Shown here: positions 19,459 to 63,982 of the stretch, piece by piece
Layout: the number at the start of each line of letters is the position of its first letter
Numbering within the stretch: position 1 is the first letter of the stretch
DNA from: Tubiluchus corallicola
Lineage: Eukaryota; Priapulida; Priapulimorpha; Priapulimorphida; Tubiluchidae
Reading direction: 5' to 3'
NCBI GenBank assembly: GCA_030141605.1
Contig: JAQGDQ010002372.1
Location: 761,694 to 825,693 of the forward strand
DNA: 64,000 nt
Program-made: the position numbers and the translations under genes
Notes under the pieces: generated by a model
What the model was told of the DNA's origin: nothing
What the model saw: only the letters and a program-made list of their open reading frames with translations
The model's database searches: none

Positions 19459-22053
19459 TTATACCGAGGTGACAATTGCTGTTGTTTCCGAGTTATCTAA
19501 GTGCTTCTTTGTTTCACTAGAGTGGATGGGTGGTGGTGGTGGGGGAGGAACAACAGACATAAAATCTCTTTCTTTTTTACTAACTGTCCTGCTTTTTAGC
19601 ACGCACACATAAGCACACAGAATGATTACTAAAACGGCACACATTCCCAATGAACTTGCTAGTATTATGATGATTAAGAAATGCTCATTTTCTATTCCTG
19701 TGCACACAGAAGCACTGTGATCACTGTTCTTTTTATCACTATTGGGAGTGTCTGTTTCAAAATGCTTGTTGTCATAGAAACCATTGTTCATTGAACTAGT
19801 GCACACAAATGACGACGGCTGTAAGCACATAATACACTTATTCATTAAATATGGCGGTCCATAACACGTGATACTGTTTAGTTCATCTATATCAGCAAGG
19901 CTGCTGCGCGATTTATTTTTCCACAACTCTAACCATTCACGCAACCATTTTATTTGACAGTCACAAATCCAAGGGTTCTTATTTATCCTTAAAGTCTTGA
20001 TGCCAAGTGCATGTGTTTTTGTCAGCACATCTGTGTCCATGCGCATAATCCGATTATGGCTGAGATCTAACCAGCTCAACATCTGCAGTTTTTTAAACAG
20101 CTGACCTTTAATAGTAGAAATATTGTTATAGCCAAGATCGAGCTGTTGTAATGTTGGAATGTCATTAAATGCACTGTCTGCTATATCTGTTATTGTGTTA
20201 TTTGCTAGCGATAAATGTCTGAAAGACTTCATGATCTGAAAACTACCATTTTCAATAACTTTTATCTGGTTGTGACTGATATTTATCACAATAACTTCGC
20301 TCAAGTTATAAAAACTATTCACTTGTATGTCGCTAATGTTGTTGTGAGATAAATCAAGGCTCTGTAAACTAGATAAATTCGAAAAAGTCCATGCTTGAAT
20401 CTTTTCTATGCGGTTGAAAGATAAATTAATAGCTGTTATAGAACTAGTAAATGGTCCACCTTGAAATGCCATTGGGTCAACAGTGCTGATATTGTTTCCT
20501 TCGAGGTGAATGTTCAGCAAACTCTTCATATTACAGAAAGAGTTATCTGGCAATCGGTATACGTTGTTGTTTTCCATCTGAAGGCTTTGCAAAGCGGTCA
20601 TATTTATAAAAGCTTCTTTTGGGAAAATACTAATGTGATTATTTCTAAGTACAAGGTGCTGAAGACTCTTTTCAACCCCAAGGAAGGCTTTTGAGCTGAT
20701 GTGATCGATTTTATTATTGCCTAAAGTGAGTATCCTTAGTGAACGGAGAGTAAAAAATGATTCGTCTGGTATCCATCGTATCTGATTATCTTGTAGAGAT
20801 AAGCTCCATAAATTAGTAAATCCATAGAGTGCTGATACTGGAATTTCTGTCAGCAAGTTTCCTTCCAAGTTAAGCGTTCCTGGGTTTTCTTTAAATTCCT
20901 CTAAGCTATTGGGTGGAATGTTGATATTTTGTATTTCATTGTTACCTAAATTAAGCACATGCAGTGATCTTAAGTTAGCTATTACTGTATACGGAAATTG
21001 ACTAATACGGTTACGTGAGAGATGTAGATAGACGAGGCTGTCTTCCAGCCCATTTAGTGCCCCATCAGATATGTTACTGATTTCATTAGCATCCAAGTTT
21101 AGGTTCATTAGATTGGGAAGATTGCGAAAACTGTCATTAGGTATGGATGTTATTTCGTTCGCCCCCAGTACTAAATACTGCAGTTGGTACATATTGAGTG
21201 CTTCTTTTGGTATCTCTTTTAACTTGTTACTGTGCAGATATAGCAATGTAACATTATCTAGACCGGAAAAGCCATGCTCTTCTATTGTGGTTACCTGATT
21301 ATAAGCAATGTTGAGATGCTCTAATTCAATGAGGCTGCTAAATGCTTGGTTTTGGATGGTTGTAATGTAATTATGAGATAACTTGAGTATAGCAAGTCTG
21401 TCTAAATGGCAAAATGCATTCGAAGTGATGTTCATTAGGTTATTGTTCCGTAAATCTAACTCTTGCAGTGCATCTAACCCTTTAAAGGCATTGTGAGCTA
21501 TGCTGTTTATGGAATTTGAATTTAATTTGAGCTGTGTCATTGACGGCAAAGAACTAAATGCATAATTGTGGAGCTTCGTGATCATGTTGTAACCAAGGTC
21601 TAGTTTTTTCAGATTGTGCAAACCTTCGAATACTGCAGATGGAACTTGCGCCATGTTGTTTTCTTTCAGTATCAGCTCTAATAAATAGTCTCTAGATTCT
21701 AAAAATGCTTCTGCTGCAATCGTTTCCAAGTTGTTATTTACAATGTGAAGCTCCTTTATTTTGAGGTGGGAAAGTGTTGGCTGAGGAATAGTGCTGATTT
21801 GATTGTACTCTATCACTAGTTTGGTGATGAAATTATCTTTGTTTACACTTTGCAGTGCTTCGTCGATGCTTTCCAAATTGCTGTTTTCACAGTGGATGTT
21901 AAGTGGATTGGTGCTGGTGCACCAACAAACACTCGTCTTCCTTGTCTCCAGAGGACACAGTTGTGTAGATACCTGGTTTATTAAAGAACAACCAACGTAT
22001 GCATGAAGAAGTTGATAAAACAGCCATAGCAATTTTTCCTGCTTCCCAGCCAT
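19459..22053 (-). CDS. Leucine-rich-repeat single-pass membrane protein (chaoptin/receptor-like)
   Basis: One uninterrupted minus-strand exon. The open frame extends to 22095 (878 codons), but the ATG at 22053 is preferred because TTGGTTTTTGCAG followed by ACAATGG is a strong splice acceptor. That start gives 864 residues beginning MAGKQEKLLWLFYQLL, a signal-peptide-like hydrophobic stretch. Numbered on the 878-codon frame: an LRRNT-type cysteine cluster (C47, C57, C59, C69), then about 25 repeats of the LxxLxLxxNxI form from residue 85 to 700, with scattered N-x-S/T sites. An LRRCT cap follows (NPWICDCQIKWLREWL, about 707-766), then a membrane helix (about 805-833) and a short tail with seven prolines. 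The C-terminus is TSV, a class I PDZ-binding pattern. Likely a cell-surface adhesion or recognition protein. The array resembles chaoptin, but that is GPI-anchored, so orthology is unproven. It is antisense to the neighbouring Acl4-like gene and may sit in its last intron. Confidence 0.9.
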   Translation of the reverse strand: MAGKQEKLLWLFYQLLHAYVGCSLINQVSTQLCPLETRKTSVCWCTSTNPLNIHCENSNLESIDEALQSVNKDNFITKLVIEYNQISTIPQPTLSHLKIKELHIVNNNLETIAAEAFLESRDYLLELILKENNMAQVPSAVFEGLHNLKKLDLGYNMITKLHNYAFSSLPSMTQLKLNSNSINSIAHNAFKGLDALQELDLRNNNLMNITSNAFCHLDRLAILKLSHNYITTIQNQAFSSLIELEHLNIAYNQVTTIEEHGFSGLDNVTLLYLHSNKLKEIPKEALNMYQLQYLVLGANEITSIPNDSFRNLPNLMNLNLDANEISNISDGALNGLEDSLVYLHLSRNRISQFPYTVIANLRSLHVLNLGNNEIQNINIPPNSLEEFKENPGTLNLEGNLLTEIPVSALYGFTNLWSLSLQDNQIRWIPDESFFTLRSLRILTLGNNKIDHISSKAFLGVEKSLQHLVLRNNHISIFPKEAFINMTALQSLQMENNNVYRLPDNSFCNMKSLLNIHLEGNNISTVDPMAFQGGPFTSSITAINLSFNRIEKIQAWTFSNLSSLQSLDLSHNNISDIQVNSFYNLSEVIVINISHNQIKVIENGSFQIMKSFRHLSLANNTITDIADSAFNDIPTLQQLDLGYNNISTIKGQLFKKLQMLSWLDLSHNRIMRMDTDVLTKTHALGIKTLRINKNPWICDCQIKWLREWLELWKNKSRSSLADIDELNSITCYGPPYLMNKCIMCLQPSSFVCTSSMNNGFYDNKHFETDTPNSDKKNSDHSASVCTGIENEHFLIIIILASSLGMCAVLVIILCAYVCVLKSRTVSKKERDFMSVVPPPPPPPIHSSETKKHLDNSETTAIVTSV

Positions 22054-22095
22054 TGTCTGCAAAAACCAACAAAAAACATTTACTGATTTAGCCAT

Positions 22096-42795: not shown

Positions 42796-43020
42796 GTTTA
42801 GTTTAGTTTAGTTGAGTTGAGTTGAGTTGAGTTGAGTTGAGTTGAGTTGAGTTGAGTTGAGTTGAGTTGAGTTGAGTTGCGTTGCGTTGCGTTGCGTTGC
42901 GTTGCGTTGCGTTGCGTTGCGTTGCGTTGCGTTGCGTTGCGTTGCGTTGAGTTGAGTTGAGTTGAGTTGAGTTGAGTTGAGTTGAGTTGAGTTTAGTTTA
43001 GTTTAGTTTAGTTTAGTTTA
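42796..43020. repeat. Concentric pentanucleotide microsatellite
   Basis: Forty-five uninterrupted 5-bp units: GTTTA x3 (42796-42810), GTTGA x13 (42811-42875), GTTGC x14 (42876-42945), GTTGA x9 (42946-42990), GTTTA x6 (42991-43020). The unit variants are arranged symmetrically around the centre. It forms the 3' tail of the minus-strand LINE remnant. Confidence 0.95.
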
Positions 43021-44360
43021 TGTGGTATATGACCAACAAGGCCAGCCAAAATACGTTTTACAGAAACCACATCAGTTTGCGTGCACATTCAAGAGTAAAC
43101 AGCACATTGCATCATTACATCAGATGACTGCATAATATTGGATAACTTCTTTTCGTTACTAAGCGTTATATAACTTAGATATAGTTCACTTATATAATTA
43201 TTTCAAACGTTACGTGCTACTGCGTGTTTTGAACAATGAAATAAAAATATTTGTCTTCTACAACGTTACAGGTTTCACAAAGACGATTCCTAAACTGCGT
43301 CCGCTAGGTTCTAAGTTTATGATTTTATGTCTTTAATATTTTTATCATTTAATAAGGAAGATTCGAATACAAACTCGGACTTGTTGATAAAAGTGCAATT
43401 TAGACATATTTGTTAGAGATTGTCGTCAGGTTATTCAAAAGTTAGCTTTAACTCATCCTTCAGCAAGACAGACAGTATTAGAATAAAGCGCTATTGAGTC
43501 AGCATTTAGCAGTTGATCCAAATTTATCCTATTTAACATCAATTTCGACGACCTGTACCAAAGAACATTTAAAGTTTTGCTAAAGTGGTATCTTGGTTGC
43601 ATAGTCGTGTTTGTGGAAAAGAAATACCCGAAGCCAATATTTAACAACTCTACAAGAAATATCTAAATTTATCTGATATCTTCCTAATGCTCCAACCATG
43701 GCTGGAGTAGGAGTTGTCAGCACCTAAAATTGCTTTATAATATTTAAGAAAAGGGTTTCAAGAACAGCAAAATATTTCATACCACAGATTTCACATCCAT
43801 AACATAGGATGGGTTTGGCATATATGTTAAAGAAAGGTATTTGCAAAGTTGGCTTCAAAATACCCAAATGTTTTTGATTTACTCAGTAAAGAAAATACTA
43901 CTTCGTTGCCTTGCGAGGCAGGATAATTTACAGATTCATTAAATTAATCATTTGGATTAAAATATACGCCAATGCATTCGTGCTCGACATATTGTTTTAT
44001 TAATGTGCCGTAGCAAAAGAAATCCTGTTGGTGATTCAACAAAAGTACTCTTTTCAAATATTAAAATTTCAATCTCACTGGATTTGACAGTTTAGACTCC
44101 ATTTTCTACAATGGCTGTTCAGTAGCTTTAACTGATGTAGCAAACCCTTCTTAGTTACAATAATTAAAACGAGATCATCTGTAAACATGTCATTAATTAG
44201 TATTATGCCATCAGAATCTTGTACATTTTTTATAGACACTCATCTAAATCAATAAAATACAATAAAAACAGCATGAGTGACAGAGTACAGCATTAAAGTA
44301 CACCAAATTCAACCAAAAAATACTCAATTAAACCAGGATCAGCTAACACAACTTCGTGTA
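42796..44360 (-). mobile_element. Decayed LINE with pentanucleotide 3' tail
   Basis: The minus strand carries a reverse-transcriptase remnant broken by stops and frameshifts. Near 44345-44245 it reads ADPGLIEYF then CCTLSLMLFLLYFIDLD, matching the RT block usually written GVRQGC-LSP-LF-LYI-DL. Next, at about 44230-44160, comes DSDGIILINDMFTDDLVLII, with FTDD (codons in 44185-44171) as the catalytic F/Y-x-D-D. Further on are ESVNYPASQGNEVVFSLLSK, YFEANFANTF and YYKAILGADNS. The 3' end is the tandem (TAAAC/TCAAC/GCAAC) tail at 43020-42796, reading in minus sense. The upstream limit is a guess. It is distinct from the 6259-8046 LINE, which ends in an ATTGAA tail. Confidence 0.8.
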
Positions 44361-54291: not shown

Positions 54292-57200
54292 GTGCTCACA
54301 GTCATCAAGGAAAACCCAAATATTTGCAAGCAAATTCACCTGCCAGCACAGAGTGGAAACTCAACAGTATTGACTGCAATGCGCAGAGGATACACTAGAG
54401 ACACCTATATAGACTTAGTCCATCATATTCGAAGTATTCTGCCAGGTAACTGTTATTGTCTGTTCATAGGTTATTGTGTTATGTTACAGTGTCTTAATGG
54501 CAGTGTGGTTTATCATATCACATTCACAGTATGCTGGCCTAAAATCTGGACTATTGTGTTTCTTTCACAAATTTGTTAAGTAATATTAATTTGCTGTTAT
54601 ATATGTTCTTATATTCATTTTTAATCATAATTAAAACATATTTTGTTGTGAAATAAATGAGTTACTAATAATAACTAATAATAATAAATAATAATTATTT
54701 AAATTCACCAGCCTAGAACAATAATGATAGTAAAGTGGTTAGTCATTTCTAAAACAACTTTTGATAATTTTTTCCACAAATTCTTTTCGTTTTTGCAGAA
54801 CAAAATGACTTTATAGGAAAAAAACATTTATTAAGTTTTAAACGAACCGTTAAAGAACTCGTATGTGTGTGTGTTACTTCTTAACATGGCTTCAAATTTT
54901 GTAATCGTATGTGTGTGTTACTTCTTAACATGGCTTCAAATTTTGTAATCGTATGTGTGTGTGTTACTTCTTAACATGGCTTCAAATTTTGTAATCGTAT
55001 GTGTGTGTTACTTCTTAACATGGCTTCAAATTTTGTAATCGTATGTGTGAGTTACTTCTTAACATGGCTTCAAATTTTGTAATCGTATGTGTGTGTTACT
55101 TCTTAACATGGCTTCAAATTTTGTAATCGTATGTGAGTGTTACTTCTTAACATGGCTTCAAATTTTCTAATGTCTTTTTCAGGTGTTTTTTTATCAAGTG
55201 ACTTCATCTGTGGTTTTTGTAACGAGACTGAAGAGGCTCACGAAGACACGCTGTCGCTTATTCGGCTAGTCAAATACAATTTTTGCTACATGTTTCCATT
55301 TAGTTTGAGAAAGGTGGGTGAAAAAATGAAGAAAAACAGAGAAATGTAGAGATTGGCTAGAAGTATGAAGTGTTTTACGGTTGCCAACACCCGACCACTT
55401 AAGTATGACTGACTCGTAGTGTCACTTGTTTGGCAACTCGTTATCTTAATTTAGTGTTTATGAATTTATTTAAAAGCACTGATTAGCAGGGCCTATTTCA
55501 TGGGGCGGGGGAGTGGGGATACTTCCCTGGGCCCTCACCCTCCAGGGGGGCCTCACACCAAGGTAACATTTTTTTCTTTATGCGAACATACTGCCTCTTC
55601 TCTCTCTCTTGCCGCACGCGCGCCGTTTGCCAGTATTGACAAGTATTAAGGACTGGTCTTGAGAATAAAGCAGTTTTTCTTTCAACTGTTCTTTCCTTTA
55701 ACAACTGTATAACTCCATATTTTCTCTTCGAAAAAAATGCTTCTCCGGCGTTCTAGCAGTTCAAAAATTTTCTGCACGCCAACCATGATGGCACCCATGC
55801 CCCGGCGCTTCATGCCACCCCCCCCCCCCCAAGGGGGCCTCACATGCCCCACTTCCCCGGGCCTAGCTTAGGCTGAAATAGGCCCTGCTGATTGGCACCG
55901 ATTTGTGATGAAGATCGGGTGAGAAAAATGTGAGCAGAATTTCAAAGATTATTGTACAGGCATTACAGACATTTTCAGTTTTAATATTTTCTTGTAGAAG
56001 ACTCATGCATATCACAAGCTAGAAGACAACGTGCCGCAACACGTCAAGGTTCGTCGGATGCAGGAAATTCTTGATTGTTTTCGACAAGAAGCAGAGAAGT
56101 TGAATGCGCAGCTTGTTGGCTCTGAACAGCTGGTGTTAATTGAAGGAGTAAGTTGATTTTAGTAGGTGATTCAAAAAAAAATAAGAAAAACAAACCGTGG
56201 CTGCCTTAACCTAGAATGACCCAGAATTCTTTCATACATTAGCTTTATTCATTTTTTATTTTACGTAGTTAGTTAGTTAGCTAGTTATATTAGTTAGTTA
56301 GTCAGTCAGTTAGTCAGTTACTGTATATAGTTATGTACAAGTCGAATTTTTGGGAGGCGATTTTAAGGTGAAATTTTTGGGGTCGACTTATACTTACGAT
56401 ATGTTTTTTGACTTGTACCACCACTTTGCATTAGTTTACCCAGTTGCTGTGGTTGTGACTTGTACCACCACTTTGCATTAGTTTACTGTGATACACGCGT
56501 ATAGTGTGCTATTTTAAAATGTGCTGATGAAGTCTGTTGTTCTTTTACCAGACAAGTAAACGATCACAACAAGATTTATTCGGCAGAAATGACGGCGGTA
56601 CTAAAGTCATTGTACCTGACGTTGAGGTGCCCCTAGGAGTTTCCACTGAAATTCACAAACGACTAAAACCAGGAGATTATGTTGTAGTGCACGTAAGTGT
56701 TTTGTGAAATTTTTGTTGACAGTTAAGTAACATTAAACCTGTTCTGTTCTGAGCTAGAGAAACAGAGTTAATATTCATCTCTTGCTTACTGTTGAAGTTT
56801 GAACTTGTATCAGTAATTTATTGTTAAAAACTTGAACTTAAAAATTATTACTAAGAGTTGAAACTTTTCCCACTTAAACATTATCAGTGTTTTTGATCAA
56901 GCAGAAGACCTTTTATGGCATTTCATTAAAAAAAGAGCTTACATGTACCTCGCATAGGATATGAGAAAGAGCTTACATGTACCTCACATAGGATATGAGA
57001 AAGAGCTTACATGTACCTCGCATAGGATATGAGAAAGAGCTTACATGTACCTCGCATAGGATATGAGAAAGTGCTTACATGTACCTCGCATAGGATATGA
57101 GAAAGAGCTTACATGTACCTCGCATAGGATATGAGAAAGAGCTTACATGTACCTCGCATAGGATATGAGAAAGAGCTTACATGTACCTCACATAGGATAT

Positions 57201-58588
57201 GAGAAAGAGCTTACATGTACCTCGCATAGGATATGAGAAAGAGCTTACATGTACCTCGCATAGGATATGAGAAAGAGCTTACATGTACCTCGCATAGGAT
57301 ATGAGAAAGAGCTTACATGTACCTCACATAGGATATGAGAAAGAGCTTACATGTACCTCACATAGGATATGAGAAAGAGCTTACATGTACCTCACATAGG
57401 ATATGAGAAAGATCTTACATGTACCTCACATAGGATATGAGAAAGAGCTTACATGTACCTCGTGTAGTATATGAGAAAGAGCTTACATGTACCTCGCATA
57501 GGATATGAGAAAGAGCTTACATGTACCTCACATAGGATATGAGAAAGAGCTTACATGTACCTCACATAGGATATGAGAAAGAGCTTACATGTACCTCGTG
57601 TAGGATATGAGAAAGAGCTTACATGTACCTCGTGTAGTATATGAGAAAGAGCTTACATGTACCTCGCATAGGATATGAGAAAGAGCTTACATGTACCTCA
57701 CATAGGATATGAGAAAGAGCTTACATGTACCTCGCATAGGATATGAGAAAGAGCTTACATGTACCTCACATAGGATATGAGAAAGAGCTTACATGTACCT
57801 CGCATAGGATATGAGAAAGAGCTTACATGTACCTCACATAGGATATGAGAAAGAGCTTACATGTACCTCGTGTAGGATATGAGAAAGAGCTTACATGTAC
57901 CTCGCATAGGATATGAGAAAGAGCTTACATGTACCTCGCATAGGATATGAGAAAGAGCTTACATGTACCTCGTGTAGTATATGAGAAAGAGCTTACATGT
58001 ACCTTGTGTAGTATATGAGAAAGAGCTTACATGTACCTCTTGTAGTATATGAGAAAGAGCTTACATGTACCTCACATAGGATATGAGACACTCTAAATAT
58101 CGAGATTACTTTTTCAAAATAACTGGCACTGAAGACCTAAATAAAATCAACATTACAGTATTCATCTGATGGTTTAAGTCTGTGTGCATCTACACTAATA
58201 CTACAATTTTGTTCTGAATTGCATAAAGAAAGAACCAAGATGTTACTTGTATGTATGTACAAATGCTGGTTTATCCATTGAGACCAAGAAATCTCTAAAA
58301 TTGCATTGTGAATTTATAGCCTTGTTTTGAAGCACCTAACTCTGTAATGTGATTCCTTATTTAAAGTGTTTGTAAGGAAAACATGGAAGCTGGAGACATT
58401 TTTTGTCTGGCTACATTTACAACAATTTGTAATGAAAACTGTTACATTTGCAGGTGAATTCGTCTACATCACAGGTACTGAAAGCAACACCTATGTTTCA
58501 CACGACTTTGCAGGATTATTCAAGACAAAGCTATTGCAAGGAGATCTATGCATCCTATCAAACCTACATGAAGAGTAGCATTCGGTGA
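54292..58588 (+). CDS. CDK5RAP1: CDK5RAP1 tRNA methylthiotransferase, C-terminal five exons
   Basis: Exons 54292-54445, 55183-55313, 55998-56147, 56552-56692 and 58454-58588 (stop TGA 58586-58588), all GT-AG with consistent phase, give 236 residues. CDK5RAP1 is a mitochondrial radical-SAM enzyme that adds a methylthio group to i6A37 of mitochondrial tRNAs. Visible here are the late radical-SAM segment ([42 protein letters not shown]), the linker helix ([20 protein letters not shown]) and a TRAM domain ([38 protein letters not shown], closing FHTTLQDY). About 300-330 N-terminal residues are absent, including the UPF0004 domain and the CxxxCxxC iron-sulphur motif. The frame is open upstream of 54292 to an ATG at 54106, but that stretch is hydrophobic and precedes a strong acceptor, so it is intron. 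AATAAA at 58955-58960 may be the polyadenylation signal. Confidence 0.93.
54860..55171. repeat. 44-bp minisatellite, seven copies
   Basis: Unit contains GTATGTGTGTGTTACTTCTT then AACATGGCTTCAAATTTTGT. Length varies by GT-dinucleotide number. The last copy ends about 11 bases before the 3' splice site of CDK5RAP1 visible exon 2, so the final unit overlaps the branch-point and pyrimidine-tract zone. Confidence 0.95.
55487..55887. mobile_element. hAT-like non-autonomous TIR element (401 bp)
   Basis: Ends are CAGGGCCTATTTCA and, in inverted form, TGAAATAGGCCCTG, perfect over 14 bp. Flanks are CTGATTAG (55479-55486) and CTGATTGG (55888-55895), an 8-bp duplication with one mismatch. An 8-bp duplication with CAG...CTG ends is the hAT pattern. 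No transposase. It sits in the intron between CDK5RAP1 visible exons 2 and 3. Confidence 0.85.
56936..58088. repeat. 34-bp minisatellite, about 34 copies
   Basis: Unit starts GAGCTTACATGTACCTCGCA and ends TAGGATATGAGAAA, with almost no length change through 1,153 bp. Copies differ mainly at one six-base site (CGCATA, CACATA, CGTGTA) and at GGATAT/GTATAT. It occupies most of the last CDK5RAP1 intron. It has no unique spacers, so it is not CRISPR-like. Confidence 0.97.
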
Positions 58589-60704: not shown

Positions 60705-61327
60705 GTATGTGATTTTCAATTCTACTGTTGGCTACAAGTAACTTTGAAAAGCTCAAGTAGACTAAAAAAATGTAAAAATATTTTACATACAGATTTAATG
60801 CCACCCTTGACACTTATGTAAAAAATAGTTTAGTGAAAACAACTTACATATCTATGTTTTTCGTTGCTGTTCCTCATTATTATACAGTTATGCTTAATAT
60901 TGACCATTTACACATTCAAATAACCTGTAAAACTTTACTTAAGGAAGATGTTATCTGCTTCACTCAAATTTGTGCATGAAAAAACCTAAAAAGCTACTGT
61001 AAATAGCTACAATAGCTACTAAAAGTACCACAAATACAGTTACATAAATAATATAGGGAAATAGAAAGAAATTGCAAAAAAACTATAGTAATTAACTTCA
61101 TTAATTTTAGGTGTAAAATAAGATGCAGGCATAATAATAGTACAGATGAAACTTAAAAGCCACTATCATGTCGTCATAGTGACATAGAGAGGAAAAGACA
61201 AGAGTGTAATGCAGGTTAACAGGTCAGTCAATTACTAAAAATTGTAATTTGCATTATTTTTTGCTTAATCTAGCTCAGTTTTTAACTTTTCAAGTAAAAC
61301 ATGATAGCTGACTTAATACTCATGAAT
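60705..61327. other. No gene recognised
   Basis: AT-rich intergenic sequence between the hAT element and the ~102-bp tandem array. Confidence 0.4.
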
Positions 61328-61935
61328 GTGTATATCATTCTAAGCTATTTACTTTATAGATAACATTTTATCTAAAACTATTTGCCAAATAGCTAGCTAC
61401 AATGTATATCTTCACAAACAGTAACTTTGTGTATATCATTCTAAGCGATTTACTTTATAGATAACATTTTAGCTAAAACTATTTGTCAAATAGCTAGCTA
61501 CAATGTATATCTTCACAAACAATAACTTTTGTGTATATCATTCTAAGCTATTTACTTTATAGATAACATTTTAGCTAAAACTATTTGCGAAATAGCTAGC
61601 TATAATGTATATCTTCACAAACAATAACTTTTGTGTATATCATTCTAAGCTATTTACTTTATAGATAACATTTTAGCTAAAACTATTTGCGAAATAGCTA
61701 GCTACAATGTATATCTTCACAAACAATAACTTTTGTGTATATCATTCTAAGCTATTTACTTTATAGATAACATTTTAGCTAAAACTATTTGCGAAATAGC
61801 TAGCTACAATGTTTATCTTCACAAACAATAACTTTGTGTATATCATTCTAAGCTATTTACTTTATAGATAACATTTTAGCTAAAACTATTTGCGAAATAG
61901 CTAGCTACAATGTATATCTTCACAAACAATAACTT
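61328..61935. repeat. Six-copy ~102-bp tandem repeat
   Basis: Units start GTGTATATCATTCTAAGC at 61328, 61429, 61531, 61633, 61735 and 61836 (periods 101-102). Each contains a TAGCTAGCTA palindrome and ATGTATATCTTCACAAACA. Copies differ by only a few bases. Confidence 0.96.

Positions 61936-62845: not shown

Positions 62846-63982
<1,137 letters not shown>

Follow-up and report, generated by a model that had tools for sequence, protein, structure and literature searches.

Structure of the array and the adjacent LINE remnant

The window analysed here is a 64-kb stretch of Tubiluchus corallicola DNA that forms the terminal part of contig C1752 in an assembly of 343.5 Mb and 2344 contigs. At positions 42796-43020 it contains a pentanucleotide array that directly abuts a LINE remnant. 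The array parses into (GTTTA)3-(GTTGA)13-(GTTGC)14-(GTTGA)9-(GTTTA)6, i.e. 45 units and 225 bases with zero interruptions. The unit counts given in the first-pass annotation (3-13-14-9-6) are thus exact in every detail, and Tandem Repeats Finder (TRF) agrees with the direct parse (period 5, 44.8 copies). All five blocks are assigned to the minus strand. The outer shell on the target side (42796-42810) consists of three GTTTA units (TAAAC in element sense), taken as the ancestral unit on the basis of the parse and the tails of relatives described below. It is followed in the parse by 13 units of GTTGA (TCAAC in element sense; 42811-42875), the first derived unit, which differs by a T>G change, and by a core of 14 units of GTTGC (GCAAC; 42876-42945), the second derived unit, which carries a further A>C change. 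The first derived unit then reappears on the LINE side in nine copies (42946-42990), and six GTTTA units (42991-43020), again assigned as ancestral from the parse and the tails of relatives, form the LINE-side outer shell.

The units on the two sides of every block boundary differ by one base. With five pure tracts, no spacer and neighbours that are one mutation apart, the array shows both properties by which we tested for a compound microsatellite; the earlier term 'satellite' is too strong, and the proper class is a 225-bp compound pentanucleotide microsatellite. All 14 CpG sites of the core block are intact in a surrounding region that is CpG-depleted (CpG o/e 0.66), which is consistent with a young core. 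As for strand folding as a driver, neither strand of the array folds better than shuffled sequence.

The LINE copy (43021-44330, minus strand; the 5' limit is approximate) is a 5'-truncated and broken remnant comprising the 3' UTR and the C-terminal reverse-transcriptase region, as identified from its relatives, an RVT_1 match in one of them (L007) and the reading frames. A region with the motif FTDDLVLI is recognizable, with many stops and frameshifts. Relatives with 65-75% DNA identity match its 3' region; across all relatives the identity is 65-83%, so that all are old, and none is a close sister copy that would show the array before its expansion. A Pfam search of L007 with stops masked gave an RVT_1 match (E 1e-8), and the same type of search gave no match for the window copy itself, which is too decayed to score. 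In the 3'-complete relatives, homology starts at base 3-13 of the element body beside the array (counted from 43021), which places the array at the 3' end of the LINE. Its earlier description as the 3' tail of a LINE is therefore upheld by the point at which the relatives' homology stops and by the RVT_1 match. A search for a target-site duplication returned just a 9-bp AT-rich match (TAATAATTA), lying ~400 bp past the point where the 5' end was expected.

Assembly context

The array and its surroundings are byte-identical on six contigs (C2107, C2072, C1831, C1752, C1974, and C2074), of which four end at one common base, one starts there, and C2074 continues past it. All six also have identical sequence at points spread over the 64 kb and at two further positions, ~100 and ~400 kb upstream. 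From this identity, we read the six copies as a single locus that is represented repeatedly in a redundant assembly. Their use as six genomic copies lending independent support was ruled out by the identity at all sampled points over ~400 kb, and because of the redundancy they give no independent confirmation of the block order. Any copy numbers counted in this genome must be corrected for the same redundancy.

Elsewhere in the window, tandem arrays with 96-97% match occur at 56932-58088 and 61327-61935 (34 copies of a 34-bp unit and 6 copies of a 102-bp unit, respectively), and two long single-exon reading frames are present on the minus strand, namely one for an 878-residue leucine-rich-repeat protein (19459-22095) and one for an NAD-dependent epimerase-family protein (62846-63970).

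Tails of related LINE copies

The unit carried by the tails of related copies was examined in 13 other LINE copies that extend to the element end or stop just short of it. The 35 bases that follow this end were scored for every pentamer rotation class (204 classes), with a stretch 75-110 bases away serving as the control. The GTTTA class (written AGTTT; TAAAC in element sense) ranked first of the 204 classes, with a z of 9.5 over the 13 copies and 0.4 in the control stretch, and z was still 5.4 after the two best copies were removed. Six of the 13 tails are individually significant for GTTTA (p<0.02), e.g. L166 (...TTTAGTTTAGTTTAGC) and L161 (...TTAGTTTAGTTTA), and the remaining seven are eroded and show no clear GTTTA pattern singly. 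For the first 11 copies, the z values of GTTTA, GTTGA, and GTTGC were 9.7, 3.4, and -0.4, respectively, the value for GTTGA being expected from its likeness to GTTTA. A further copy, L168, has a single GTTGA. The number of recognizable tail units per copy is at most about five, and a GTTGC tail, which had been named beforehand as the contrary observation to look for in other copies, was found in none of the LINE copies examined.

The presence of short GTTTA tails in the relatives and of no GTTGC tail indicates that the rim of the window array is ancestral and that the long array grew after insertion. Judged from these tails, the ancestral tail was a short (TAAAC)n in element sense and the outer shells represent the old units. 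The top rank of GTTTA thus bears out TAAAC as the ancestral unit proposed in the first-pass annotation, and the origin of the inner variants after insertion follows from the short tails of the relatives.

Block-built arrays in the genome

A random order of the 45 units could take ~3x10^18 arrangements, and the block order is therefore not due to chance at the unit level. At the block level, two A, two B, and one C can be placed in 12 orders without equal neighbours, only three of which obey a one-substitution rule. One of these three is the mirror order, so that the concentric arrangement is in itself weak evidence. Genome-wide, just two loci show a GTTTA2-GTTGA2 boundary, namely the window array and a pair of copies on contigs C1487 and C1570. 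Arrays composed of pentanucleotide blocks from a different unit family (ATTAT, ATTGT, GTTGT, GTTGC, ATTGC, ATTAC, etc.) are common in the genome.

Among 52 sampled arrays, 79% of neighbouring blocks are one base apart versus 53% after block shuffling, and none of 2000 shuffles reached 79%. The first block equals the last block in 8 arrays, where 8.9 are expected, i.e. without enrichment. Mirror order is likewise not enriched among the 53 arrays that include the window array (4 seen and 3.7 expected from shuffles), all counts of this sample being limited by the choice of the sample by seed motifs and by the 20 arrays that are cut by the fetched stretch. The window array is the sole mirror-order array with five or more blocks among the 53, where 0.7 would be expected in all. 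An apparent GC-rich core is weakly supported, since 7 of 2000 shuffles reach it, or 121 of 2000 when uncut arrays are considered, and the choice of seeds biases it. Mirror order is accordingly rejected as a law that holds throughout the genome; the genome-wide rule is a one-step walk, of which the mirror is one outcome. The view that an origin at the centre is specifically marked by concentric shells is not sustained by these counts, and it is weakened further by the place of the mirror among the three permitted orders and by the slippage simulations described below. In contrast to the window array, L089 (C146:55350-56150) shows a one-sided walk that starts from GTTGA, where the blocks of at least three units are GTTGA57, GTTAA36, and GTCAA21, with no return within the fetched stretch.

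Seven other loci, L110 (C156:48480-49200), L119, L120, L139, L097, L123, and L153, contain clean pentanucleotide blocks that step one base at a time, and the first four of these leave an AT-rich unit and come back to it along a different path. One such closing walk reads ATTAT2 ATTGT5 GTTGT7 GTTAC7 GTCAC11 ATCAC5 ATTAC2 ATTAT6. Across the block arrays, all four combinations of bases are present at 40 of 151 pairs of variable positions. The derived bases thus seem to occupy overlapping intervals, for which clonal slippage of whole units is insufficient without recombination or repeated mutation. Recurrent mutation, including CpG decay, may lie behind these pairs, GTTGT and ATTGC being the expected products of such decay from GTTGC. 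Exchange of patches shorter than the five-base unit, with each base spreading separately, is a minority reading to which we would give roughly one chance in seven. At L091, L102, L126, and L133, sequence resembling ATTCATCAATAAACTTATTATTA lies on the right flanks of ATTGT-type arrays, which suggests that these arrays may also be located at the 3' end of a repeated element.

Growth of the array

The explanation that we consider best, and hold with good though not full confidence, is that a short LINE tail was lengthened in place by two substitutions, each multiplied locally, with the older units left at the rims. A short (TAAAC)n tail would have been laid at insertion of the LINE; a T>G change inside the GTTTA tract would then have generated GTTGA, which multiplied; and an A>C change inside the GTTGA block would have generated GTTGC, which multiplied in turn while the older units remained at both rims. 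The post-insertion timing is inferred from the relatives, which carry at most about five recognizable units, and one-step parsimony suggests the order in which the two inner variants arose: GTTTA as the ancestral unit requires two substitutions, whereas GTTGC requires four, with parallel changes on both sides. The copying mode would most likely be short-range replication slippage or sister-chromatid conversion, as has been argued for MSY1 (PMC2599865), by one or a few units per event, and the sequence fits these two mechanisms alike.

Simulations of slippage and of end addition, a comparison that had been proposed as a check, separated the two modes of growth. One-ended addition yielded A-B-C and never A-B-C-B-A, whereas local slippage by single units gave A-B-C-B-A in ~10-20% of three-type chains, and multi-unit steps gave this order more rarely than single-unit steps. 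A model of large-segment exchange was rejected, as its simulated arrays were interleaved rather than built of blocks. Three-type arrays in which both variants arose straight from the ancestral unit outnumbered nested chains several-fold, and neutral models rarely produced balanced blocks of the size found in the window array. Neutral slippage alone thus makes the array possible, not expected; the newest or purest block may have been favoured by a difference in rate. In other arrays, paralogous or allelic copies with common flanks (C1487/C1570, L092/L093, and L122/L130) vary mainly inside and keep the rim, e.g. GTTGA4-GTTTA3 or 2-GTTGA2 in C1487/C1570.

Four other explanations of the window array were weighed. 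The LINE may have inserted into or beside an older GTTTA/GTTGA microsatellite, so that the array would be target DNA. GTTTA and GTTGA arrays are indeed common in the genome away from this LINE, but GTTTA-like sequence is found at the 3' end of this LINE family at many unrelated sites, which shows that the unit belongs to the element or its fixed junction, and the 5' end of the window copy shows no GTTTA tract; we regard this origin as improbable. About equally improbable is a mixed tail made in one step during target-primed reverse transcription, through slippage of the LINE enzyme along the RNA tail. Short repeats are added at the 3' junction by LINE enzymes of several clades, and the position of the array coincides exactly with the end of the element. 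Past the two derived units, however, the sequence reverts to TAAAC on the side facing the target, where a one-ended process gives A-B-C only, so that the presence of this unit at both ends disfavours one-ended growth; moreover, the tails of the other copies are short and of the GTTTA type, and GTTGC is found in none of them.

That the block order or lengths are an artefact of assembly appears very unlikely: the six identical contigs of this redundant assembly are not independent, but similarly clean blocks are found at many independent loci of the genome, and any long read spans 225 bp. The least credible explanation is that the GTTGC core is oldest and the rims were derived by mutation at the edges, since, even though substitutions in microsatellites reportedly occur most often at the ends of tracts (Brohede and Ellegren, as cited in PMC2644718), the same two transversions would be required independently on both sides and the rim unit is the tail unit of the relatives.

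Comparison with known systems

On the preferred explanation, i.e. in-place growth of a LINE tail, the window array is a neat case of a known mode of short-repeat growth and no new system; a literature search on LINE tails yielded nothing closer than the systems compared here. In the survey of Kofler et al. 2008 (PMC2644718), neighbours in compound microsatellites differ by one mutation in >90% of cases and new tracts arise mainly at the ends of old tracts. The window array resembles compound microsatellites that originate from amplified imperfections in that its neighbours are one mutation apart and the mutated unit would have been multiplied by slippage, but differs in that both of its derived units are internal.

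A further likeness is found in (ATTTT)n-(ATTTC)n-(ATTTT)n and similar pentanucleotide alleles known from SCA37, FAME, and CANVAS (PMC8773600, PMC11043136), which are also pentanucleotide arrays in an A-rich tract or tail of a retroelement. In SCA37 and some FAME alleles, a derived pentamer is nested in the ancestral one within the A-rich tract of a retroelement; as in the window array, a unit derived by one base has expanded within and is flanked on both sides by the ancestral unit. Those alleles are, however, longer, associated with Alu, composed of two unit types, and located at human disease loci, whereas the window array is associated with a LINE and has three units and two nested steps.

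The MSY1 minisatellite (PMC2599865) is likewise AT-rich and has its variant units sorted into clean blocks, and it mutates by 1-3 units and by boundary switches through intra-allelic exchange. Unlike the window array, it has a 25-bp unit, lies on the Y chromosome, and usually shows the order 1-3-4, which is not a mirror. In layered centromeres, e.g. that of human chromosome 8 (PMC8099727), newer repeats are central and older ones have been pushed symmetrically to the edges, so that the mirror symmetry with old repeats outside is shared. That centromere, however, consists of megabases of alpha-satellite higher-order repeats with kinetochore function, whereas the window array spans 225 bp with no known role, and the mirror is not the regular outcome among the arrays of this genome (4 of 53 versus 3.7 expected).

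The window array combines three unit types with an outgroup that sets the polarity independently: other copies of the host LINE identify the ancestral unit of this nested microsatellite, and the direction of growth need not be assumed. The array offers a parallel to human disease alleles such as SCA37, which arose in Alu A-rich tracts, and the larger collection of block arrays in the genome could be used to test slippage against short-patch conversion.
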